From Actinotalea lenta (GTDB taxonomy: Bacteria > Actinomycetota > Actinomycetes > Actinomycetales > Cellulomonadaceae): a stretch of DNA of 64,000 bases. Position 1 is the stretch's first letter. Each line of letters starts with the position of its first letter. A program made the translations under genes and the position numbers. Shown here one piece after another: positions 4,445-18,846 of this stretch. The stretch covers positions 2,274,981-2,338,980 of the forward strand of contig NZ_JAUQYP010000001.1 of the NCBI RefSeq assembly GCF_030586465.1. The letters are read 5' to 3'. The notes below the pieces were generated by a model that was given only the letters and a program-made list of their open reading frames with translations, searched no databases and was not told the DNA's origin.

Positions 4445-6109
4445 CTACCGTCGGGCTCCTGAAGCCGCCGCCCACAGGAACACGGCTCCGGCGACGGCCA
4501 TCAGCGCGATCCCCACGCCGTCGTCGGCGGCTGCCACGAGGACTGCGCCCGCAACGAGCAGGGCGGCCCCGGCGACCGTCGTGGACAGGCGGTCCACCGA
4601 GCGCCGCAGCGTGCGCAACGAGCGGGTGGCCTGCTCGTCCCGCACAGCGAGTCCGCGGCTCTCGATCTGCGTGAGCACCCGGGTGGCCTGCCCGGGCAGC
4701 GCAACGGCCGCCATGAGCGTGTCGCCGAGCTGGTCCAGCCAGCGGTCCAGTCCGGAGGACGTCTCGTCGGCGACCAGCTTGCGCGCGAAGGGGCCGAGCT
4801 GGCTCCACAGGTTGAAGTCCGGGTCGAGCCCCGTGCACATGCCCGACAGGATCGCCACCGTGCGAACCACGTACAGCAGGTTCTGCGGCACCTGGAACGG
4901 CATGTCCAGCAACAGGTCACGGTACTGGTGGGCGAACTCGCGGACCTCCTGCGGGTCGATGTTGCGCAGCTCGTTCATGGACAGGCCCCAGTACCGGTCG
5001 AAGACCTGGGCCTCGGCGCGTTCGATGGCGGCCAGGTCGGCCCCAGGCAGGAGCATGTCGAGCATCTGGTAGGCCCGGACCACGCGGCCGGCGTCGCGGG
5101 TGCCCACCGCGATGAGCAGCTCGCGGAGACTGTCGCGGACCGAGTCGGGGATGCGCGAGACCATGCCGAAGTCGACGAACGTCAGCTTCCACCGGGTGGG
5201 CCCGTCCCCGTCGACGGGCGTCACGAACAGGTTGCCGGGATGCGGGTCCGCGTGCACGAAGCCGTCCTCGAAGATCTGCTGGAGGTAGGTCGCCAGGAGC
5301 CGTCGGGCCACGTCGCCACGGTCGATGCCCGCCGCGGTGATGGCGTCGTAGTCGGTGATCTTGATGGCGGAGACGTCCTCGAGGGTGAGCACGCGCATCG
5401 CGCTGAGCTCGCGCACGACGCGTGGCACCCGCACCTCGGGGTGATCCGCGAAGTTGGCCAGGAACGTCGCCGCGTTCTCGGCCTCCAGCTGGTAGTCGAT
5501 CTCCTCGTGCAACGTCACGGAGAACTCCCGCAGCAGGGCGGGCACGTCCGAGTGCGTACGGATCGGGCGGTAGCGCATCAGCCAGCGGGCGACCCTGGCC
5601 AGCGCCGCCAGATCGGTCTCCACCACGGCGGCGATCCCCGGGCGCTGCACCTTGATGACCACGTCGACGAACTCGGTGCCGTGACCCGGCCCCAGCCGGG
5701 CACGGTGCACCTGCCCGAGGGAGGCGGCGGCGAGCGGCTCGGGGTCGACGTGTGCGAAGAGCCTGGTGATCGGCGCGCCGAGCTCCTCCTGCGCGAGGGC
5801 GGCGATGGCCGAGAAGTCCTCGGCGGGCACCTCGTCCTGGAGGTTGGCGAGCTCGTCCGTGATCTCCCGGGGCAGCACGTCCAGACGGGAGGACAGGAAC
5901 TGGCCGATCTTGATCATCACCCCGCCCATCCGGATGGCGAGGGCGCGGAACCGAGCGGCTTCGCGACGGTAGCGCTCCGGCCGGGTGCGCAGCACACGCC
6001 GTCGCAGCCCCACGCGGCGCAGCACGACGTCCCACCAGAGGAACCGGGCGATCACACCGGCGAAGAACCGGAGGATGTGGCGGTACCGGCCACGTAGGGA
6101 CGACGTCAT
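4445..6109 (-). CDS. ABC1/ADCK (UbiB-type) atypical kinase
   Basis: Membrane-associated protein-kinase-like ATPase of the AarF/UbiB/ADCK family, 554 residues. The start is the ATG at 6109 with a perfect AGGAGG seven bases upstream. The family-defining KxGQ motif is KIGQ at residues 67-70, followed by SSRLDVLP. The Ala-rich nucleotide loop (AAASLGQVHRA), HADPHPGN and VDFGM motifs are all present. Two hydrophobic segments near residues 505-550 form a C-terminal membrane anchor. The family supports prenyl-quinone biosynthesis or lipid homeostasis, but the actinobacterial role is not defined. It is a stand-alone gene 70 bases downstream of the YyaL gene. Confidence 0.88.
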   Translation of the reverse strand: MTSSLRGRYRHILRFFAGVIARFLWWDVVLRRVGLRRRVLRTRPERYRREAARFRALAIRMGGVMIKIGQFLSSRLDVLPREITDELANLQDEVPAEDFSAIAALAQEELGAPITRLFAHVDPEPLAAASLGQVHRARLGPGHGTEFVDVVIKVQRPGIAAVVETDLAALARVARWLMRYRPIRTHSDVPALLREFSVTLHEEIDYQLEAENAATFLANFADHPEVRVPRVVRELSAMRVLTLEDVSAIKITDYDAITAAGIDRGDVARRLLATYLQQIFEDGFVHADPHPGNLFVTPVDGDGPTRWKLTFVDFGMVSRIPDSVRDSLRELLIAVGTRDAGRVVRAYQMLDMLLPGADLAAIERAEAQVFDRYWGLSMNELRNIDPQEVREFAHQYRDLLLDMPFQVPQNLLYVVRTVAILSGMCTGLDPDFNLWSQLGPFARKLVADETSSGLDRWLDQLGDTLMAAVALPGQATRVLTQIESRGLAVRDEQATRSLRTLRRSVDRLSTTVAGAALLVAGAVLVAAADDGVGIALMAVAGAVFLWAAASGARR

Positions 6110-6179
6110 CGGACCTCCTGCCGGACGGGTGGGGGCAGCATCCCATGTCTCGCGGCCGCCGGCCGGGTGGGCGGACCGC

Positions 6180-8231
<2,052 letters not shown>

Positions 8232-8357
8232 GGCCGGGTCACCTTCTCCCTCCGCCGGATCGGTTCGGCAGCAGCACCTGCCGTCGTCGCCACCGTGGCA
8301 CACCTGCGCGGTGCCCGCCTCAGCACCTGCGGAGGGTGGCGTGGCACCATCGAGGTC

Positions 8358-8780
8358 ATGGCGATCAGCGTCGGGCCGACCCTGGTGATCCCCCGGGCCG
8401 AGCTCAGCGTGCGGTTCTCGCGCTCGTCCGGTCCGGGCGGTCAAGGCGTCAACACGACGGACTCCCGGGTGGAGCTGTCGTGGGACCTGGGGTCGTCAGC
8501 GGTCCTGACCGAGACGCAGCGCGCCAGGCTGCTCGAGCGCCTCCGGGGTCGACTCGTGGACGGCGTGCTGACCGTGACCGCATCCGAGCACCGTGGGCAG
8601 CGGCGTAACCGCGCCGCGGCGGAGAGCAGACTCGCCGCGCTCGTGGCGGACGGGATCCGCCCACCCGGGCCACAGCGCCGCCCGACCCGCCCGACCCGTG
8701 GCTCCCAGGAGCGCCGGCTGGCTGCCAAGCGTGCCCGCTCCGACCTCAAGCGCCGGCGCTCGTCGCGGCACGGCGACTGA
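8358..8780 (+). CDS. arfB: Alternative ribosome-rescue peptidyl-tRNA hydrolase ArfB
   Basis: A codon-independent release factor that frees ribosomes stalled without a stop codon, 140 residues. The catalytic GGQ motif is at residues 27-29 inside [11 protein letters not shown], the class I release-factor signature. There is no codon-recognition domain. The C-terminal 35 residues are rich in Arg and Lys, the tail that enters the empty mRNA channel. The ATG at 8358 was chosen over upstream in-frame codons because the GGQ domain then starts at the normal distance. No strong ribosome site is visible. Confidence 0.9.
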
Positions 8781-8807
8781 CTCGCGGCACCGCATGGTGC
8801 GGCCCGG

Positions 8808-9989
8808 TCAGTGCATGAGGGAACGGGGGAACGCCAGGGCGACTCCTGCGGACAGGACGCTGAGCGTGGCCACCACCCAGAACACCGGCATGACGTCGGC
8901 GTCCGTCACCAGGAAGCCGATGACCAGGACCAGCAGGGCGCCGACGCCGTTCGCCAAGCCCAGCGCGATGCCGGAGCCCATGGAGCGGTTCTCCGGGAAG
9001 ATGTCCTGGCCGATCAGCACGCTCGGTGAGGCGGTCAGGAACAGCACAGGTCCGAGGACGGCCGCGGCGACCCAGACCACGGGGCCGTGCAGGTACACCA
9101 CCGGGAAGATCAGAGCCGCCGTCGCCAGGGAGGACACCACGAGAACCGGCCTGCGGCCCAGCCGGTCGGCCAGGTGGCCGCCGAGCAGGTTCCCGGCCAC
9201 GCCTGCGACCACGATGGTCGTGATCACCGATGCGCCTGTCACCAGGCCGGCGCCACGTACGTGCCACAGGATCGGGATGAAGGCCACCAGTGCCGCGGTC
9301 GTCAGGGCGCGGATGGACCGGTAGCCGAGCAGGAGCGTCAGCGGACGACGGTGCTCGCGCCACCGGAGGGCCGCGCCGGTGCGGCGGCGCGGCGCCAGGT
9401 CCGGAGCCCAACGGACGACGAGGGCGACGGTGGCGAGTCCGGGCACCGCCACGATCCAGAGATAGGTCAGGCCCAGGTGGGTTGCCACCAGGCTCGCTGC
9501 CGTGGGCCAGATCCCGCGCCCCAGCTCGCCGCCGACGAGGAACACCGAGGTCATCAGGCCACGCCTGTCCTGGAGGATGCTGCGTACCCCCGCCAGCGCC
9601 TGGGGGTGGAACAGCGCACTGCCCAGTCCGATCATGAGCAGCAGCACGACGAGCAGAGCGAGGTTCCGGGTGACCCCCAGGAGGCCTCCTCCGAGCGAGC
9701 TGAGCAGCAACCCGGCCGCGACCATGCGTCGCCCACCGACCCGGTCCGCCACCCAGCCGGTCAACGGCTGGAGCGCCTGGCCGATCGTCAGCGCCGCGAT
9801 GAGCACACCGGCCATCTGCACGGGTTCGTCGACCGCGACGAGCACGGCGGGCAGGACACCCGGGAGGTAGTTGGCGGCGCCGTCGTTGAGCAGGTGTGCC
9901 CAGGACAGTGCGACCAGCCGCCGGACCGGGGTACGTGCGCCGGGCGCGCCTTTCGTCCCCGGTCGGGACGCCATGGTCGGTCCGGTCAT
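8808..9989 (-). CDS. MFS efflux transporter, fosmidomycin-resistance (Fsr) type
   Basis: Twelve-helix major-facilitator permease of 393 residues. The first helix carries SWAHLLNDGAANYLPGVLP, the pattern of Fsr-like drug exporters. The MFS A-like loops GWVADRVGGRR and GGHLADRLGRRP are at the expected places in both halves. The start at 9989 overlaps the stop of the upstream marR gene as ATGA, so the two are co-translated. A MarR-controlled drug or metabolite exporter is the likely role. The substrate is not readable. Confidence 0.82.
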   Translation of the reverse strand: MTGPTMASRPGTKGAPGARTPVRRLVALSWAHLLNDGAANYLPGVLPAVLVAVDEPVQMAGVLIAALTIGQALQPLTGWVADRVGGRRMVAAGLLLSSLGGGLLGVTRNLALLVVLLLMIGLGSALFHPQALAGVRSILQDRRGLMTSVFLVGGELGRGIWPTAASLVATHLGLTYLWIVAVPGLATVALVVRWAPDLAPRRRTGAALRWREHRRPLTLLLGYRSIRALTTAALVAFIPILWHVRGAGLVTGASVITTIVVAGVAGNLLGGHLADRLGRRPVLVVSSLATAALIFPVVYLHGPVVWVAAAVLGPVLFLTASPSVLIGQDIFPENRSMGSGIALGLANGVGALLVLVIGFLVTDADVMPVFWVVATLSVLSAGVALAFPRSLMH

Positions 9990-10953: not shown

Positions 10954-13900
10954 ATGACCTCACAGCAGCCCCAGTTCCCCGGCATCCCCAGCGTCATCAA
11001 TGGCAACGGTGCCGTGGCCTACGTCATGCGCCATGTCTGCGGTGGCGTGATCGGATACCCCATCACCCCCTCCACCGAGATCTCCGAGCTCTTCGAAGCC
11101 GCTCGCGCAGAGGGCAACGTCAACGTCTGGGGCAAGCACCCGTTCTTCTTCGAGGCCGAGGGCGAGCACTCGGCGCAGAGCGGCGCGCTCGGCGCCGCCC
11201 TGACCGGCGGGCAGTACGTCTCCAACGCGTCGTCGAGCCAGGGCATCCTGTACGCGCTCGAGTCGCACTACGTCAGCGTCGGCAAGAAGATCGGCGGGTT
11301 CGTGCTGCAGTGCGCGGCGCGTGTGGTCTCCAAGCACTCCCTGAACGTCATGGCGGGGCACGACGACGTCTACGCACTGCTGCCCTCCGGCTACACGATC
11401 ATGTTCGGCTCGAACCCGCAGGAGGCGGCCGACCTCGCCGCGATCTCCTACCGGACCGCCGCGCTGTCGCTCATCCCGGTGACCAACGCGATGGATGGCT
11501 TCGCGACGAGCCACATGATGAGCGAGATGCTGCTGCCCGAGCCGGAGCTGCTGCGCGACTACCTCGGCGACCCGACCAGCTACGTCCCGTGCCCGACCGT
11601 CGCCCAGGAGGTCCTGTTCGGCGCCCGCGGTCGCGTCGCGCAGCTGATCTCGTGGCTCGAGCGCCACCGCGAGGACGTCGTGGAGGCGGACGCCGCCGCG
11701 CTCCGGGCGCACCTGGAGGGCAACGTCGACGCCATCGAGGCCGACGGGGCCGGCGCTCTCGTCGAGCCCACCCTCGCGTGGTTGCCCGAAGAGCTGCACG
11801 GCGCCTGGTCGCGCCAGTGGCGCAACGCCGCGAGCAAGGGCACCCGCCAGCTGGTGCCGGCACTCGTCGACGTCGACAACCCCGGCCTCACCGGTCCGGT
11901 CCAGAACCAGCCCGACTTCCAGGCCGGTGCGGTCGACCACCGCACGCACTTCGCGTCCGAGGTCCCGAGGTTGGCGCGCCAGGCCATGGCCGAGTACTCC
12001 GAGCTCACCGGGCGCAGCTACTCGCCGGTGATGACCTACGACGTCGAGGACGCCGACTACGTCATCGTCGGTCTCGGCTCGATCACCGACGACGTGCGCG
12101 CGGTGCTCCCGTACCTGCGCGCCCAGGGCCACAAGGTCGGCGTGGTGTCGGTCAAGCTCCTCTCGCCGTTCCCCGAGGCCGAGCTGGTCGAGGCGCTGGC
12201 CGGCAAGAAGGCCGTCACGGTGCTCGAGCGCTCCGACAACACGGCGCTGACCTCGCTCGTCACCTCGGCGCTCTTCAAGGCCCGCCAGAACGCCGACGGC
12301 TCGTCGCACGAGCTGCCCGCGTTGTCCGCGCTGCCGCGGCTGACCACCGCGATCTTCGGCCTGGGTGGTCACGACGTGCAGCCGCGCCACATCATCGCGA
12401 CGTTCCAGCACATGATCGACGGCAAGACCGCCCCGCTCGTCTACCTCGGCTCGCAGTTCTTCTCGGCCAACCCGGCCCCGGAGATGGCGGACATCGAGGC
12501 ACGGCTGCGGGCCGCGTACCCGACCACCGAGCACATGGCTCTCGAGACCAAGCCGAACCCGCTCGGCCTGCTTCCCGAGTCGGCGATGCGCATCCGGTTC
12601 CACTCGGTCGGCGGGTACGGCACGATCGCGACCGGCAAGCTGCTCACCGACATCCTGTCCGGGGTGCTCGGCATGCACTCGAAGTCTGCCCCCAAGTACG
12701 GCTCGGAGAAGTCCGGTGCGCCGACGAACTACTACATCACCCTGAGCCCGGACCCCGTCCTGATCACCAATGCCGAGCTCGAGGACGTCGAGGTCGTGCT
12801 GGCGCCGGACCACAAGGCGTTCGTGCACACGAACCCGCTCAAGGGCCTCGGTGACGGTGGCACGATGATCATCCAGTCCGACCTCAGCCCGGCGGAGTTC
12901 TGGCGACAGCTGCCCAAGTACGCACGCACCGCGATCCGCGAGCGCAAGATCCGACTCATGATCATCGACGCCTTCGCCGTCGCGAAGGAGCATGCGCCCA
13001 AGCCCGAGCTCGAGACCCGCATGATGGGCATCGCCTTCATCGGTGCGGTGGCAGGGCACGTCGACCGGGTCGCCAAGGGCGCCACGCGCGAGGCGATCCT
13101 GGACAAGGTGCGCGCCCAGATCTCGAAGAAGTTCGGGTCCAAGGGCGAGGCCGTCGTCGAGGGCAACATGGCGGTGATCCGCGACGCGATCGACGCGGTG
13201 GTCCCGGTGGACTACGACGCGCCCGAGCTCGTGTCGATCGACGCCGAGGGCGGACCGGCACGCCTCATGCGGCCGATCACGGTGTCGCAGGAGATGTGCA
13301 CGGCGAGCAACCCGACCGCGGCCGCGCTGTTCGACCCGGGGTACTACGAGAACATCGTCGCCCGGCCCTTCCGGGAGGGCACGATCGGTGAGGCACCCGT
13401 GCTGCCCGGCTCCGGCCTGTTCATGCCGGCCGGTTCCGCAGGGTCCAAGGACAAGGGCCTGTTCCGGCGGACGGTGCCGGCGTTCAACGCCGACCTGTGC
13501 ACGGGCTGCCTGGAGTGCGCGCTCGTCTGCCCGGACGCCGCGATCCCCAACACGGTGCACGAGCTGCACACCCTGCTCCTGACCACCATCGACACGCTGG
13601 ACCTGCCCGAGTCGCAGCGCGCCCTGCTGCGGGCGCAGGTGTACCCCCTCGCCGAGGGTGTGCGGGAGCGGTTCCGCGCCGAGAAGGAGACGCCGGCGTT
13701 CCACGACCTGGTGGCTCAGGTGGGCGCCGCCCTCGAGGTGGGCAGCGCGATGTTCTCGCGCAGCCTGTCCGCGTTGGTCGAGAAGCTCGCCACGTTCCCC
13801 GTGGCGCGCACCCGGCCGTACTTCGACGCGATGGAGAAGGAGACCCCCGGCTCGGGCGGGCTGTTCAGCGCGACGATCGATCCCTGGAAGTGCACCGGCT

Positions 13901-15948
13901 GCCTGGAGTGCACCGAGGTCTGCGGCCCCGGCGCGCTCACGCCGATCGACCAGACCGACGACGTCCTCACCACCCTGCAGGACCGGTTCGAGCTGCTCTC
14001 GCAGCTTCCGAACACGCCCCCGCGGTTCCACGACGGCGCCACGTCGGGCGAGGGTGACCTCAAGCGGCTGCTCCTGGACCACGACAACTACTACGCCACG
14101 ACCGGCGGCCACGGCGCGTGCCGCGGCTGCGGCGAGGTCACCGCCATCCGCCTGGTGATGTCGATGAGCCACGCCCTCGGCGAGGAGCGCCGCGAGGCGC
14201 ACGAGGCGGCCCTGGCGCAGATCCTGCGGGACCTGGAGGCCAAGCTGGCCACGCTCGAGGAGGCCGAGACCGAGCGCCGTGCGCGGATCGAGGGCCTGGT
14301 CGCCACTCTCGAGCGCCGCCTGTACCTGGTCGAGTCCGGCCCGACCGGTGAGGGCCCCGCCTCGACGATCGTCGCCAACTCGACCGGCTGCTCGAGCGTC
14401 TACGCCTCGACGATGCCCTACAACAACTACCTCGACCCGTGGGTGAACAGCCTGTTCCAGGACGCTCAGCCGTTGGCCAAGGGCATCTTCGAAGGAGTGG
14501 CCCACGAGCTGGTCGACGAGGTGCGCGCGATGCGCACCGCACGGCTGGAGCTGGACGACGCGTACGACCCGGCCCGGCACCTGCCGATCATGCAGCGACT
14601 GACCTGGGAGAGACTGACCAAGGACGAGCTCGCCCTGATGCCCACGATCATGACGATCGGTGGCGACGGCGCCAGCTACGACATCGGCTTCGGAGCCCTC
14701 AGCCGCGTGCTGGCCTCCGACACGCCGATCAAGGTGATGGTGCTGAACTCGGGTGCGTACTCCAACACGGGTGGCCAGACGTCCACCGCGTCGTTCACGG
14801 GTCAGGACTCCGACCTGTCCCGGTTCGGCGGGGCGCACGCCGGCAAGCACGAGTCCCGCAAGGAGCTCGGCCTGATCGCCTCGTTCCACCCGAACGTGTA
14901 CGTCGCGTCGACGTCGACGGCTCTGCACGGACACTTCCTCAAGTGCTCGATGGACTACCTCAGCTACGCCGAGGGCCCCGCGGTGATGGACACCTACACA
15001 CCGTGCGGCTCCGAGCACGGGATCGCCGAGGCCGCCTCGGCCGCCCGGGCGCGCCTCGCGGTGGAATCCCGCATGAGCCCGCTGTTCGTGCACGACCCGC
15101 GGCGCGGCAAGACGTTGTACGAGTGGTTCAGCCTGGAGGGCAACCCCGACCCGGAGAAGACGTGGACCACGACGACGCTGCAGTACGTCGACGAGGCCGG
15201 TCAGATCCAGCTCATGACCACGCCGCTCACCCCCGCGGAGTTCGCGCTCGGTGAGACGCGGTTCAAGAAGCAGTTCAGGCCCCTCAAGCCGGCGGACGAG
15301 GAGACCGCGGTGCCGATCGACGAGTATGTCGAGCTCGACCTCGGCGACAGGGAGGGCAGGACCCCGTTCATCTATGCGACGGACGACGACCAGCGCCTCA
15401 TGAAGGTGCAGTGCTCGCACCAGGTCGTCGCCCTGGTGGAGGACCGCAAGCGGTACTGGCAGATCCTGCAGTACCTCTCCGGCCTGCACGAGGAGGAGCT
15501 CGGCGCGGTCTACGCCGACGACCTCGCGTCGATCACCGCGCGCTACGACGAGGCCATGACGCTGCGCGAGTCGTCGCTGGACGACATCGCGCGGGCCATG
15601 GCGGAGCTGGCCACCTCGAGCAAGGCGCCCGCGGGTCTGTCCGCACCGGTGCCGATGCGCAACGGGGCTGCGGGTGCGACGGCGCCGGCAGCGGCCCCGG
15701 CGGCCACCGCGGTGGCCGACCGCGCGGTCTGGCTGGACCCGGCCGATGTCGCGAAGTGCACCGACTGCGGCACCTGCTACCAGGAGCTGCCGATGCTCTT
15801 CGAGAAGACGACCCAGGTCATCGACGGCGAGGCGCGGACGGTGGCGCGGATGAAGGAAGGGGCCCTCGACAAGGTCGAGATCACCCCGGAGATCGCCGCA
15901 CGCATCGAACGGGTCAAGGCCACGTGCGACTCGGAGATCATCAAGTGA
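10954..15948 (+). CDS. nifJ: Extra-long pyruvate:ferredoxin/flavodoxin oxidoreductase
   Basis: Predicted to oxidise pyruvate and CoA to acetyl-CoA and CO2 and pass electrons to iron-sulfur clusters. It has 1664 residues against roughly 1170-1230 for usual PFORs. The order is: pyrimidine-binding domain with GYPITPSTEISE near residues 34-45; domain II; gamma domain (GGYGTIATGKLL near 550); a two-[4Fe-4S] ferredoxin domain (Cys849/852/855/859 and Cys980/983/986/990); and a TPP-binding domain with CRGCGE near 1055 and GGDGASYDIGFG near 1236. Two additions stand out: a charged heptad-like insertion at about 1077-1130, and a C-terminal extension with Cys1602/1605/1608 plus Cys1658. The TGA overlaps the next gene as GTGA. 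The ribosome site before the ATG is weak. Confidence 0.85.
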   Translation: MTSQQPQFPGIPSVINGNGAVAYVMRHVCGGVIGYPITPSTEISELFEAARAEGNVNVWGKHPFFFEAEGEHSAQSGALGAALTGGQYVSNASSSQGILYALESHYVSVGKKIGGFVLQCAARVVSKHSLNVMAGHDDVYALLPSGYTIMFGSNPQEAADLAAISYRTAALSLIPVTNAMDGFATSHMMSEMLLPEPELLRDYLGDPTSYVPCPTVAQEVLFGARGRVAQLISWLERHREDVVEADAAALRAHLEGNVDAIEADGAGALVEPTLAWLPEELHGAWSRQWRNAASKGTRQLVPALVDVDNPGLTGPVQNQPDFQAGAVDHRTHFASEVPRLARQAMAEYSELTGRSYSPVMTYDVEDADYVIVGLGSITDDVRAVLPYLRAQGHKVGVVSVKLLSPFPEAELVEALAGKKAVTVLERSDNTALTSLVTSALFKARQNADGSSHELPALSALPRLTTAIFGLGGHDVQPRHIIATFQHMIDGKTAPLVYLGSQFFSANPAPEMADIEARLRAAYPTTEHMALETKPNPLGLLPESAMRIRFHSVGGYGTIATGKLLTDILSGVLGMHSKSAPKYGSEKSGAPTNYYITLSPDPVLITNAELEDVEVVLAPDHKAFVHTNPLKGLGDGGTMIIQSDLSPAEFWRQLPKYARTAIRERKIRLMIIDAFAVAKEHAPKPELETRMMGIAFIGAVAGHVDRVAKGATREAILDKVRAQISKKFGSKGEAVVEGNMAVIRDAIDAVVPVDYDAPELVSIDAEGGPARLMRPITVSQEMCTASNPTAAALFDPGYYENIVARPFREGTIGEAPVLPGSGLFMPAGSAGSKDKGLFRRTVPAFNADLCTGCLECALVCPDAAIPNTVHELHTLLLTTIDTLDLPESQRALLRAQVYPLAEGVRERFRAEKETPAFHDLVAQVGAALEVGSAMFSRSLSALVEKLATFPVARTRPYFDAMEKETPGSGGLFSATIDPWKCTGCLECTEVCGPGALTPIDQTDDVLTTLQDRFELLSQLPNTPPRFHDGATSGEGDLKRLLLDHDNYYATTGGHGACRGCGEVTAIRLVMSMSHALGEERREAHEAALAQILRDLEAKLATLEEAETERRARIEGLVATLERRLYLVESGPTGEGPASTIVANSTGCSSVYASTMPYNNYLDPWVNSLFQDAQPLAKGIFEGVAHELVDEVRAMRTARLELDDAYDPARHLPIMQRLTWERLTKDELALMPTIMTIGGDGASYDIGFGALSRVLASDTPIKVMVLNSGAYSNTGGQTSTASFTGQDSDLSRFGGAHAGKHESRKELGLIASFHPNVYVASTSTALHGHFLKCSMDYLSYAEGPAVMDTYTPCGSEHGIAEAASAARARLAVESRMSPLFVHDPRRGKTLYEWFSLEGNPDPEKTWTTTTLQYVDEAGQIQLMTTPLTPAEFALGETRFKKQFRPLKPADEETAVPIDEYVELDLGDREGRTPFIYATDDDQRLMKVQCSHQVVALVEDRKRYWQILQYLSGLHEEELGAVYADDLASITARYDEAMTLRESSLDDIARAMAELATSSKAPAGLSAPVPMRNGAAGATAPAAAPAATAVADRAVWLDPADVAKCTDCGTCYQELPMLFEKTTQVIDGEARTVARMKEGALDKVEITPEIAARIERVKATCDSEIIK

Positions 15949-18803
15949 CTGCCACCCTGCCCCCCACGGGGCCCGCGACCGGAGCCCGCGAGGACCTTCA
16001 GCGGTACCTCGCAGCCCAGGGCTCGCTCGAGGCGAGCCGCAGCGAGCTGACCCAGCTCGAGCACTCCGAGGAGGTGGAGCAGTTCCACCAGCAGATGGAG
16101 CTGCTACGCCGCCGACTGCTCGCCGAGCCCACGGCGTTCCGGGAGATGTTCATCTCCGACGGCATGGCCGCGGTGGCCTGGGAGTTCTCCCAGCCTGAGC
16201 TGGGCAAGCAGTTCACGGAGACGCTGTGGGGCCTGCTGCGCCGCGGCGACGATGTGAGCGTGCTGTTCATGCGCTTCCTGTGGAACCTGCCGCTGGGCAA
16301 GAAGCGGATGTTCATCCGGGCGATCGATGCGCACCTGTCCGACCGGTACCCGATGTTCGACGGCCTGTCGAAGGGCTGGCCGGCGAGCATCAGCATCCCG
16401 CCGTACATCCGTACGCCGGAGGAACGGTCCCAGGACTTCGGCCTGGTGAACCAGGGTTATCTCGGCTACATGAACATCGGCTTCTCCCGCGAGGACGTGG
16501 ACCTGTTCATCTGGCTCGAGGCGATGCGCGACAAGCAGTGTGCGGAGAAGCCGTGCGAGCTGGGCATCTTCCTGGCCAACCACAAGGAGCCGGTGGGCGG
16601 CTGCCCGGTCAAGATCCATATCCCCGACATGCTCGAGCTGATCGGGGAAGGGCGGTTCCGCGACGCCCTCGAGCTGATCGAGGGCGCGAACCCGCTGCCC
16701 GACGTCACCGGCCGGGTGTGCCCGCAGGAGCTCCAGTGCCAGGGCAACTGCCTGCACAAGGAGAGCCCGATCCAGATCGGCCAGGTCGAGTGGTTCCTGC
16801 CCGAGCGGGAGAAGCTGATCAACCCCGACAGCCTCGTGGCGAAGTTCGCCGGGCGCCCGTCACCGTGGGATGTCGCGGACAAGCCACCGGTGGCGATCGT
16901 GGGCTCCGGGCCTTCGGGCTTGATCAACGCCTATCTGCTGGCTGCGGAGGGCTTCCCGGTGACCGTCTTCGAGGCGTTCCACGCCCTGGGTGGTGTGCTG
17001 CGCTACGGCATCCCGGAGTTCCGGCTGCCGAACGAGCTGATCGACGACGTGGTCAACAAGATCACGCTGCTCGGTGGCAAGTTCGTGCCGAACTTCGTGG
17101 TGGGCAAGACCGCGACGCTGCAGGACCTCAAGGACGCCGGGTTCTGGAAGATCTTCGTCGGCTCGGGAGCCGGCCTGCCGCGCTTCATGAACGTGCCGGG
17201 TGAGCACCTGCTCAACGTGATGTCCGCCAACGAGTTCCTCACCCGCGTGAATCTCATGCAGGGTCTTCGGGAGGACTACGAGACGCCCCTGCCGGAGACC
17301 GCCGGAAGGCAGGTGCTGGTCATCGGTGGCGGCAACACGGCGATGGATGCGGCGCGCACGGCGCGTCGCCTGGGTGGCAACGTCACGATCGTGTACCGCC
17401 GCACGCAGTCCGAGATGCCTGCGCGTGTCGAGGAGCTGCACCACGCGCTCGAGGAGGGCATCGCCCTTCAGGTGCTGCGTTCACCCTCGGAGTTCCTCGG
17501 CGACGCAGAGACCGGCTTCGTCTCGGCGGCCACGCTCGACGTCATGGAGCTCGGCGAGCCGGACGACTCCGGCCGGCGGCGCCCCAAGGCGACCGGTGCC
17601 ACGGAGACGGTGAAGGCGGACCTGGTGATCATGGCGCTGGGGAACGCCGCCAACCCGATCATCAAGGACTCCGAGCCGCGCCTGCACACCTCCAAGTGGG
17701 GCACGATCGACCTCGACCACGACGGCTCGCAGGAGACCACGCTCGGTGGCGTGTACACCGGTGGCGATGCCGCCCGCGGCGGTTCGACCGCGATCCGCGC
17801 GGCCGGGGACGGCCAGGCGGCGGCACGCGAGATCGTCGGTGCCATCGACGTGCCGGGCGACGCCGTGTCCGCGATGGTCGCGTCGGCGCACGAGTACACC
17901 GAGAAGGCCGCGACCGCCCAGAAGATCGTGAGCACTGCCGAGCTGAGCGACGGCATCCACGAGTTCGTCGTGCACTCCCCGGTCATCGCGGAGTCCGCGA
18001 AGGCGGGTCAGTTCGTGCGCGTCCTGCCTCGGCCGGACGGCGAGCTCATCCCGCTGACGCTGGCGGACTGGGACGCCGAGGCCGGCACGATCTGCCTCGT
18101 GGTCCAGGGTGTCGGCACCTCATCGCTGGAGATCAACCAGATGGAGGTGGGCGAGGCGTTCGCCGGGATCGCGGGCCCGCTGGGCCGGCCGAGCGACGTC
18201 CACGAGTACCCGACGGGGTCGACCGTGGTCTTCACGGCCGGTGGCCTGGGCCTCCCGCCCGTGTTCCCGATCATGCGCGAGCACCTGCGCGTGGGGAACC
18301 ACGTGACGTTGATCGCCGGCTTCCGCAGTGGCGACCTGATGTTCTGGGTGGGCGACGACGAGAGGGTCGGCCGTCTCAAGGCCGAGTACGGCGACCAGCT
18401 CGAGATCGTGTACGCGACGAACGACGGCTCGGTGGGCTACCACGGCTTCGTGACCGGACCGCTGGAGGAGATGCTCGAGGCGAACAAGCGGGGAGAGGGG
18501 CGCACGATCGCCGAGGTCGTGACCATCGGCCCCCCGCTGATGATGCGCGCGGTCAGCGACCTGACCAAGCCCTACGGCGTTCCGTGCGTGGCGAGCCTCA
18601 ACTCGATCATGGTGGACGCCACGGGCATGTGCGGAGCCTGCATGGTGCCGGTGGTGGTCGATGGGAAGCTGGTGCGCAAGCACGCGTGCATCGACGGTCC
18701 GGAGATCGACTCCCACCTCATCGACTGGGACAAGTTCCTGCCGCGGTTCCGGCTGTTCAAGACCCAGGAGCAGCGCAGCCGCGTGGCGCACGGGCTCGCC
18801 TGA
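15945..18803 (+). CDS. Single-chain GltD/SudA-SudB (NfnB-NfnA)-like flavin oxidoreductase with extra N-terminal domain
   Basis: A 952-residue fusion. Residues 1-195 are an unrecognised, mostly helical domain. Residues 195-290 match the GltD-type iron-sulfur domain (Cys200, Cys204, GGCP with Cys220, GRVCPQELQCQGNC). The FAD site GSGPSG follows at 320-325 and an NAD(P) site GGGNTAMD near 466-473. Then comes a ferredoxin-NADP reductase-like region (GQFVRVLP onwards) ending in the SudB/NfnA [2Fe-2S] pattern MCGACMVP...HACIDGP. Together these are the two halves of Nfn or sulfide dehydrogenase in one chain. With the overlapping PFOR gene upstream it probably moves electrons between ferredoxin and NAD(P)H. 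Glutamate synthase is unlikely because no large subunit is present. Confidence 0.8.
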   Translation: MTATLPPTGPATGAREDLQRYLAAQGSLEASRSELTQLEHSEEVEQFHQQMELLRRRLLAEPTAFREMFISDGMAAVAWEFSQPELGKQFTETLWGLLRRGDDVSVLFMRFLWNLPLGKKRMFIRAIDAHLSDRYPMFDGLSKGWPASISIPPYIRTPEERSQDFGLVNQGYLGYMNIGFSREDVDLFIWLEAMRDKQCAEKPCELGIFLANHKEPVGGCPVKIHIPDMLELIGEGRFRDALELIEGANPLPDVTGRVCPQELQCQGNCLHKESPIQIGQVEWFLPEREKLINPDSLVAKFAGRPSPWDVADKPPVAIVGSGPSGLINAYLLAAEGFPVTVFEAFHALGGVLRYGIPEFRLPNELIDDVVNKITLLGGKFVPNFVVGKTATLQDLKDAGFWKIFVGSGAGLPRFMNVPGEHLLNVMSANEFLTRVNLMQGLREDYETPLPETAGRQVLVIGGGNTAMDAARTARRLGGNVTIVYRRTQSEMPARVEELHHALEEGIALQVLRSPSEFLGDAETGFVSAATLDVMELGEPDDSGRRRPKATGATETVKADLVIMALGNAANPIIKDSEPRLHTSKWGTIDLDHDGSQETTLGGVYTGGDAARGGSTAIRAAGDGQAAAREIVGAIDVPGDAVSAMVASAHEYTEKAATAQKIVSTAELSDGIHEFVVHSPVIAESAKAGQFVRVLPRPDGELIPLTLADWDAEAGTICLVVQGVGTSSLEINQMEVGEAFAGIAGPLGRPSDVHEYPTGSTVVFTAGGLGLPPVFPIMREHLRVGNHVTLIAGFRSGDLMFWVGDDERVGRLKAEYGDQLEIVYATNDGSVGYHGFVTGPLEEMLEANKRGEGRTIAEVVTIGPPLMMRAVSDLTKPYGVPCVASLNSIMVDATGMCGACMVPVVVDGKLVRKHACIDGPEIDSHLIDWDKFLPRFRLFKTQEQRSRVAHGLA

Positions 18804-18806
18804 CCC

Positions 18807-18846
18807 ACGACGAAGGGTCGCCTCGCGCGGGGCGACCCTTCGTCGT
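18807..18846 (+). terminator. Strong hairpin terminator after the pyruvate oxidoreductase operon
   Basis: A perfect 16-bp stem (18807-18822 with 18831-18846) and an eight-base loop start three bases after the stop codon. No long T-tract follows, which is common in high-GC actinobacteria. Confidence 0.85.

Follow-up and report, generated by a model that had tools for sequence, protein, structure and literature searches.

Introduction

Pyruvate:ferredoxin oxidoreductase (PFOR) and the bifurcating NADH-dependent ferredoxin:NADP+ oxidoreductase Nfn are textbook enzymes that are joined by the free ferredoxin pool. A more direct connection is found in PNO of Euglena and Cryptosporidium, a eukaryotic PFOR fused to a cytochrome P450 reductase-like part, wherein the PFOR is wired straight to an NADP+-reducing flavoprotein. 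Phenylglyoxylate:NAD+ oxidoreductase (PadEFGHI), a five-subunit enzyme of the same 2-oxoacid oxidoreductase superfamily that acts on a substrate other than pyruvate, likewise reaches its acceptor NAD+ via a flavoprotein. Here we describe two overlapping genes in a 64,000-nucleotide stretch of the Actinotalea lenta genome (contig NZ_JAUQYP010000001.1, positions 2,274,981 to 2,338,980; hereafter the window), both on the + strand, of which the first encodes a long PFOR-like protein (P0001) and the second a single-chain Nfn-like flavoprotein (P0002). From the sequences and predicted structures of these proteins and from their joint occurrence across genomes, it is probable that the two genes encode one dedicated bacterial pyruvate:NAD(P)+ oxidoreductase complex.

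A long PFOR that carries a ferredoxin-like domain on a flexible linker

The POR_N, PFOR_II, POR, [4Fe-4S] and thiamine pyrophosphate (TPP) domains are all present in the one chain of P0001, which has its catalytic domains, three internal [4Fe-4S] sites and TPP domain in common with the PFORs of Moorella (6cin) and Desulfovibrio africanus (1b0p). All 12 cysteines of the three internal clusters are kept in 81 of the 81 aligned sequences (P0001 and 80 homologues), and the best models and matching solved structures for P0001 are pyruvate oxidoreductases. The substrate might nevertheless be another 2-oxoacid, as could be suspected from the match to the curated PFOR model TIGR02176, which at 378 bits is far under the cut-off of 911 and marks P0001 as PFOR-like but outside the curated family. 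Because of this low score, the assignment of pyruvate rests on the conserved pocket. Residues T38, E71, R123 and N1271 align to the pyruvate pocket of D. africanus PFOR, presumably serve the roles of their counterparts there, and are conserved in 81/81 sequences. With this pocket and these best matches in view, we regard a different substrate as highly improbable.

P0001 is about 430-490 residues longer than the PFORs of solved structure (1171-1231 aa), from which it differs by two helical inserts, a long tail, a linker and a C-terminal ferredoxin-like domain, in addition to its paired flavoprotein. The first insert lies between the first two [4Fe-4S] motifs, which are spaced by 128-136 residues in 79/80 long PFORs and by 160 in the other one, versus 55-56 residues in canonical PFORs of related genomes (n = 6), so that the long form carries ~75 residues extra. 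The second insert, of ~60 residues, is located between C1059 and C1146. The spacing from CxxC to TGCSS, which was obtained for the 60 of 80 long PFOR sequences in which both motifs were found, is 84-97 residues, compared with 26 in the six canonical PFORs.

The C-terminal tail matches no Pfam or NCBIfam family except on its ferredoxin end. It is followed by a linker that measures 29-58 residues in 78 sequences and consists to 61% of Ala, Gly and Pro, and then by a domain with a CxxCxxC motif plus a distant cysteine. Three of the four cysteines of this domain are present in 79/81 sequences and the fourth in 78/81, the remaining rows being gapped there. A match to Fer4_15 (E <= 0.01) was obtained for 35 of the 40 members scanned, with P0001 itself scoring 21.5 bits, slightly below the Pfam gathering score of 22.4, and profile comparison pairs the domain with the solved ferredoxins 7m1o and 7m1n (E 4e-5 and 8.5e-5). 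In a structure model of residues 780-1664 (mean pLDDT 79.9), the linker is mostly below 50, indicative of disorder, and the last domain is ordered at 80-88.

These additions might serve chiefly to protect the clusters against oxygen in aerotolerant hosts, with no part in coupling. Many of the hosts are aerobic or facultative, the PFOR of D. africanus has a protective C-terminal extension, and helical inserts near the clusters could act in this way. However, the last domain keeps its cluster ligands and sits on a flexible linker, unlike a lid, and an operon that combines a 2-oxoacid oxidoreductase (OFOR) with Nfn encodes a separate protein that has a related tail and a ferredoxin-like end (see below). 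A chiefly protective function is therefore very unlikely.

A single-chain Nfn-like flavoprotein with an altered distal cluster

P0002 is a nearly full-length member of NF009415/PRK12779 (1711 bits, cut-off 1519, residues 14-952), a model whose name, 'putative bifunctional glutamate synthase subunit beta/2-polyprenylphenol hydroxylase', is given as putative and which states no partner or function. An earlier sequence-only reading of the window had seen GltD/SudA-like and SudB/NfnA-like halves joined in this chain, and both were recovered by domain and structure-sequence matches. The GltD/NfnL-like half is covered by Fer4_20 and Pyr_redox_2 and matches the NfnI large subunit (5jca_L, E 8e-103), and the SudB/NfnS-like half is covered by DHODB_Fe-S_bind and matches the small one (5jca_S, E 5e-65). 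A structure model of P0002 (mean pLDDT 83.2) yields target TM-scores of 0.87 and 0.90 against the large and small NfnI subunits, respectively, and identities in the structural matches are 40-43% to large and 41% to small Nfn subunits.

In common with NfnAB/NfnI (5jca, 4ylf), P0002 has both halves with their FAD and NAD(P) domains, a proximal site formed by three cysteines and a glutamate (Glu282), and a [2Fe-2S] motif made up of Asp891 and three cysteines. It differs in that the halves are fused in the order L-S, the PFOR partner is fixed, a helical domain of 195 residues precedes the L half, and the distal cluster lacks one of the four cysteines that are usual for NfnL. The N-terminal domain has no Pfam match in any of the 32 members scanned and no sequence match in the PDB. 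Neither this domain nor the two inserts, linker and ferredoxin-like domain of P0001 had been noted in the sequence-only reading.

One distal cysteine is missing from 63/63 flavoproteins, a feature that the sequence-only reading had not noted either, and D196, C199, C204, C269, C220, C259, C265 and E282 are invariant in all of them. We take the division of these ligands between the distal and proximal clusters from DPD and NfnAB. When P0002 is aligned with four NfnL relatives (the other NfnL of A. lenta and three homologues), D196 occupies the position of the first cysteine, and Asp196 probably replaces the missing ligand.

The two genes occur and evolve together

A scan of species genomes for the long PFOR yielded 345 candidate loci. 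The analysis covers the 80 best of them and may therefore miss members that are more distant or arranged in another way. The flavoprotein gene lies immediately downstream of the long PFOR gene in 75 of these 80 loci. Among the other five, three contigs end inside the PFOR frame, and in L113 just 51 bases remain past the PFOR stop, one frame of which weakly resembles a flavoprotein start (4.7 bits). The closest sequences among the best 80 rows come from an Actinomycetales bin (87%) and Actinotalea sp. M2MS4P-6 (86%).

Presence and absence of the two genes were also compared in two samples of related genomes. A long PFOR with an adjacent full-length flavoprotein is present in 11 of 59 genomes (A. 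lenta and 58 relatives), and the other 48 hold neither gene (Fisher p 4e-12). The counts include one genome (G047) in which the PFOR is split over two contigs, the flavoprotein lying next to the C-terminal piece, and another (G030) in which the start of the PFOR falls in two reading frames. In the second sample, 119 genomes around Rhodopseudomonas palustris JSC-3b, both genes are present and adjacent in 16 genomes and neither is present in 103 (p 4e-20). Both p-values overstate independence because the sampled genomes are related. Over the two samples, 27 genomes hold both genes and none holds just one. The sequence-only reading had treated the genes as a closed unit and suggested a count of neighbours across genomes, and this unit is borne out by the adjacency and by the joint presence or absence in 178 genomes, with a single extra PFOR copy that is described below. 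The histories of the two proteins also run in parallel: for 62 pairs, distances are correlated with r 0.925 (maximum of 1000 permutations, 0.211), and 37/59 splits are common to both trees.

Pairs are present in Actinomycetota and Pseudomonadota, which a quick PFOR tree separates save for one row. This row (L036, JAKBFW010000023.1) derives from a bin labelled Proteobacteria, its pair is nested among Actinotalea sequences, and it could represent a misbin or a recent transfer. In 396 actinobacterial genomes, the long PFOR was found at E 1e-100 in A. lenta only, and a search of 72,556 plasmid records at E 1e-100 gave no plasmid-borne flavoprotein. The sequence sets were composed as follows. From A1, G030 was omitted because its translated stretch contains two stop codons, and G047 because its pieces lie on separate contigs. 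Set A3, like the pair trees, comprises those 62 of 75 flavoproteins that are nearly complete and free of stop codons. A4 consists of the window's own sequence and 75 of the 77 loci of full length (without L059 and L061), A5 of the window's own and 39/77, and A6 of the window's own and 31/62.

In addition to the low score of P0001 against the curated PFOR model, several observations weigh against a dedicated complex. Linkage and co-inheritance would be equally expected if the two enzymes belonged to one pathway and drew on a common pool of free ferredoxin. None of the 75 pairs is fused into a single chain. At L108 (Ca. Thiosymbion oneisti, 14040-14330), no recognisable flavoprotein start was found in the 278 bases before the contig end. 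Rhodovulum sp. PH10 (G461) holds the pair plus a second, unpaired long PFOR (L133, contig 174 of 11,066 bases, about 5033-9859), and no flavoprotein was found within roughly 5 kb of contig downstream of this copy. It has one in-frame TGA and was matched to residues 5-1604 of the long PFOR (7-1613 by tblastn), and the gene may be decayed because the matched end of the ferredoxin-like domain is also absent. Finally, a phmmer alignment to Pyrococcus NfnI spaces the cluster-binding stretch of P0002 otherwise and pairs C199 with the first cysteine. Because the two alignments differ, Asp196 is a probable rather than a certain distal ligand.

The most straightforward alternative is that the two proteins are neighbours in a pathway and form no complex, the PFOR reducing free ferredoxin, a soluble single-chain Nfn drawing on the same pool, and the overlap serving just to balance expression. 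Standard PFOR and NfnAB do work through free ferredoxin, and NfnI is the nearest relative of the flavoprotein in both sequence and structural searches. Such an arrangement does not explain well why a full-length flavoprotein was never found without a long PFOR in the 178 genomes sampled, or why the PFOR already carries a ferredoxin-like domain of its own. Moreover, the distal cluster, which is the contact for free ferredoxin in NfnAB, is the one that is short of a cysteine in every flavoprotein aligned. We consider this alternative unlikely.

A second operon with a related tail and ferredoxin-like module

A second operon of A. lenta (L022:7823-15433, minus strand, at about 1015.8-1023.4 kb of contig 1), also absent from the sequence-only reading, combines an OFOR with Nfn. 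Its genes encode, in order, an NfnS-like protein, an NfnL-like protein, a fused gamma-alpha KorA, KorB and a protein of 754 aa. The last of these aligns with the TPP-and-tail region of P0001 both by BLASTP (24%, E 1e-16) and by profile comparison (99.7% probability, 373 columns). It seems to be without TPP motifs in the BLASTP or profile alignment, like a catalytically dead PFOR C-terminal half, and it matches no NCBIfam family. It ends in an Ala/Pro-rich stretch followed by a ferredoxin-like domain (Fer4_13 E 4e-4, 21.5 bits, cut-off 24.5). The tail-plus-ferredoxin module thus occurs twice in the company of an OFOR and Nfn, as it is found inside the long PFOR and as a separate protein of the second operon.

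The three further genomes examined that encode the 754-aa protein (L129, L130 and L131) have all five genes in identical order. In a sample of the order, the 754-aa protein was found in 2 of 198 genomes, A. lenta counted, and a weak match in G003 led to no second Kor-Nfn operon (L132, no match).

The surroundings of ordinary or split PFORs in relatives were also surveyed. A GltD-like gene is located within about 2 kb in 7 of 9 such loci (L118, L119, L120, L122, L124, L125 and L126; not in L121 and L123), and no NfnS-like half was matched at these nine. The association of an OFOR with a GltD-like flavoprotein may be a wider theme. In one genome (G050, contig 208, 12008-14275), NfnL-like and NfnS-like genes adjoin, and a canonical PFOR is encoded elsewhere.

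A proposed path for electrons from pyruvate to NAD(P)+

We infer that the two chains bind each other and that electrons would pass between them as follows. By homology, the PFOR core would decarboxylate pyruvate with TPP and CoA, and low-potential electrons would run through the three internal [4Fe-4S] clusters. From there they would reach the ferredoxin-like domain on its flexible C-terminal arm, which is proposed to act as the carrier. The arm would dock on the flavoprotein, probably aided by the helical N-terminal domain of P0002, and deliver the electrons to the altered distal cluster. Onward transfer would proceed via the Glu-ligated proximal cluster and the L-side FAD to NAD(P)+, the likely acceptor, and, as in Nfn, the S half might contribute a reaction with NAD(H). 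NAD(P)H would then be made without reliance on free ferredoxin. The sequence-only reading had already proposed that the PFOR clusters hand electrons to the flavoprotein; this putative hand-off is supported at the level of anatomy, by a tethered ferredoxin-like domain and an altered distal cluster, and by a parallel operon of A. lenta.

Flavin-based bifurcation is possible. As a reductant, pyruvate is much stronger than NAD(P)H; its oxidation is therefore downhill and might at the same time power confurcation with NADH. In a bolder scheme, the pair would form a new class of electron-confurcating pyruvate dehydrogenase, made up of a PFOR whose ferredoxin arm swings and a single-chain Nfn held captive by it. 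It would catalyse pyruvate + CoA + NADH + 2 NADP+ -> acetyl-CoA + CO2 + NAD+ + 2 NADPH, or fix CO2 by the opposite reaction at the expense of NADPH, and the tail-plus-ferredoxin module, contained in the long PFOR and stand-alone in the Kor-Nfn operon, would be a general adaptor that wires 2-oxoacid oxidoreductases to Nfn. Taken as a whole, this scheme is tentative and its correctness doubtful.

The pair might also run predominantly in the reductive direction, as a pyruvate synthase that uses NADPH by bifurcation (2 NADPH -> low-potential electrons + NADH) and carboxylates acetyl-CoA, by which phototrophs and storage-polymer organisms would assimilate acetate. By record title, the hosts include Rhodopseudomonas, Rhodoplanes, Rhodopila and Accumulibacter, and a review describes PFOR in acetate-grown Rps. 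palustris and the formation of pyruvate from acetate by PFOR in nine Rps., which may refer to another gene (PMC8307300). On the other side, the genome paper on Micropruina glycogenica presents annotated PFOR, pyruvate dehydrogenase (PDH) and pyruvate formate-lyase (PFL) as routes from pyruvate, with PFOR running from pyruvate to acetyl-CoA, where again the gene may be another one (PMC5974061). The hosts in Cellulomonas, Actinotalea and Demequina are fermenters rather than acetate fixers, and the sequence itself fixes no direction. We judge a mainly reductive role to be improbable and prefer the dedicated complex operating in the direction of pyruvate oxidation. PFOR genes annotated as porAB are present in Ca. 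Phosphoribacter bins and are expressed in a treatment plant according to two reports, which may concern other genes (PMC9123174, PMC12455942).

The genome of A. lenta encodes two PDH E1 proteins of the AceE type, the main one matching at 1344 bits and the second (G000 contig 1, 1677542-1680127) at 1096 bits, as well as PFL and acetate kinase. With these genes present, PFOR is not out of place in A. lenta, in disagreement with the sequence-only reading, which had found it unexpected here. Hydrogen was considered as an electron sink and set aside, since no [FeFe] hydrogenase match was obtained in the A. lenta genome ([NiFe] types not searched). The gene set fits an organism that is able to ferment and may use the pair at low oxygen. 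In A. lenta, the proposed complex would most likely convert pyruvate to acetyl-CoA under oxygen-poor conditions, beside PDH and PFL.

Comparison with known systems

On the features tested, the predicted wiring of the pair is unlike that of PNO, Pad or free NfnAB. In contrast to PNO, the system is encoded by two genes, its flavoprotein is Nfn-like and a ferredoxin-like arm is present, and no P450 reductase-like domain is listed on P0001. The Pad models score far below their cut-offs on P0001 among the best 25 of 43 families (PadG 114.6/700, PadI 61.1/700 and PadE 30.7/300 bits), and PadH is not among the best 25 of 64 families for P0002. The parts belong to or lie near known families, and it is their coupling that looks new. 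No description of the pair was found in the open-licence literature searched, which is weak evidence of absence.

If the complex exists as proposed, it would channel electrons directly from pyruvate to NAD(P)+ and would be the bacterial equivalent of eukaryotic PNO. It could explain redox balance in facultative, phototrophic and storage-polymer bacteria (Cellulomonas/Micropruina kin, Accumulibacter and Rhodopseudomonas), and would offer metabolic engineers a self-contained pyruvate oxidase that makes NADPH. It would also provide a function for the PRK12779 family, whose present putative name would probably be misleading.

Organization of the locus

The sequence-only reading had reported a 1664-residue PFOR gene that overlaps a 952-residue gene by GTGA, and both frames and the overlap were confirmed (Table 1). 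Chance open reading frames (ORFs) or a false overlap were ruled out, as both proteins are conserved along their length in many species. The P0002 frame stays open farther upstream, and the ORF list places its start at 15411. The start at 15945 is favoured because the four-base overlap is the nearest start codon in 52 of the 75 pairs of relatives, by a measure that picks the start nearest to the PFOR stop and is therefore biased toward close starts.

Table 1. Positions of the paired genes, their domains and cluster sites in the window.
Feature	Position	Strand	Basis
Long PFOR-like gene P0001, 1664 aa, ATG start	10954..15948	+	open frame; aligned with 80 homologues
PFOR domain I (POR_N, residues 31-200), including T38, E71 and R123	11044..11553	+	domain search
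PFOR domain II (residues 367-433)	12052..12252	+	domain search
PFOR gamma-type domain (POR, residues 553-746)	12610..13191	+	domain search
First [4Fe-4S] motif, C849-C859	13498..13530	+	four Cys in 81/81
Inter-motif stretch with helical insert	13531..13890	+	spacing counts; helices in structure model
Second [4Fe-4S] motif, C980-C990	13891..13923	+	81/81
Third cluster C1056, C1059, C1146 (with C1351) and helical insert	14119..14391	+	alignment; structure model
TPP-binding domain (residues 1231-1383), SNTGGQ motif	14644..15102	+	domain search; TPP match 22.3 bits, cut-off 21.9
C-terminal tail ending in two long helices	15106..15618	+	structure model
Ala/Gly/Pro-rich linker	15625..15732	+	alignment; structure model
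Single-cluster ferredoxin-like domain, C1602, C1605, C1608, C1658	15733..15945	+	Fer4_15, profile match, model
GTGA stop/start overlap, four bases	15945..15948	+	
Single-chain Nfn-like flavoprotein P0002, 952 aa, GTG start, NCBIfam NF009415/PRK12779	15945..18803	+	
Helical N-terminal domain (residues 1-195)	15945..16529	+	structure model
Two cluster sites: distal C199, C204, C269, probably D196; proximal C220, C259, C265, E282	16530..16790	+	
NfnL/GltD-like FAD and NAD(P) domains	16884..17840	+	domain, sequence and structural matches
NfnS/SudB-like part, [2Fe-2S] motif D891, C896, C899, C915	17910..18722	+	
Hairpin 3' of second stop, arms 18807-18826 / 18827-18846	18807..18846	+	inverted-repeat search

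Three bases past the P0002 stop, where the sequence-only reading had placed a 16-bp terminator, a hairpin does begin. Its arms are 20 nt long and 95% complementary, and it was not listed by a consensus scan for T-tailed terminators, and is therefore a hairpin without a T run. The pair is flanked by a divergent MarR-type ORF upstream and a dienelactone-hydrolase-type ORF downstream. A survey of flanking ORFs of at least 120 aa (68 loci with more than 1.5 kb upstream, 54 downstream) revealed no conserved third gene beside the pair among the 25 clusters listed. The largest of these covers 18/80 loci, with upstream and downstream positions mixed, and a single one of its ORFs is no more than 400 bases away from the pair. 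Local gene context therefore says little, because no gene was found conserved beside the pair elsewhere.

Farther upstream in the window, a 931-aa open frame extends from 5985 to 8777. The sequence-only reading had placed ArfB in these surroundings, and an RF-1 (ArfB-type) domain is indeed present in this frame, confined to residues 800-924; the frame probably far exceeds the actual gene in length.

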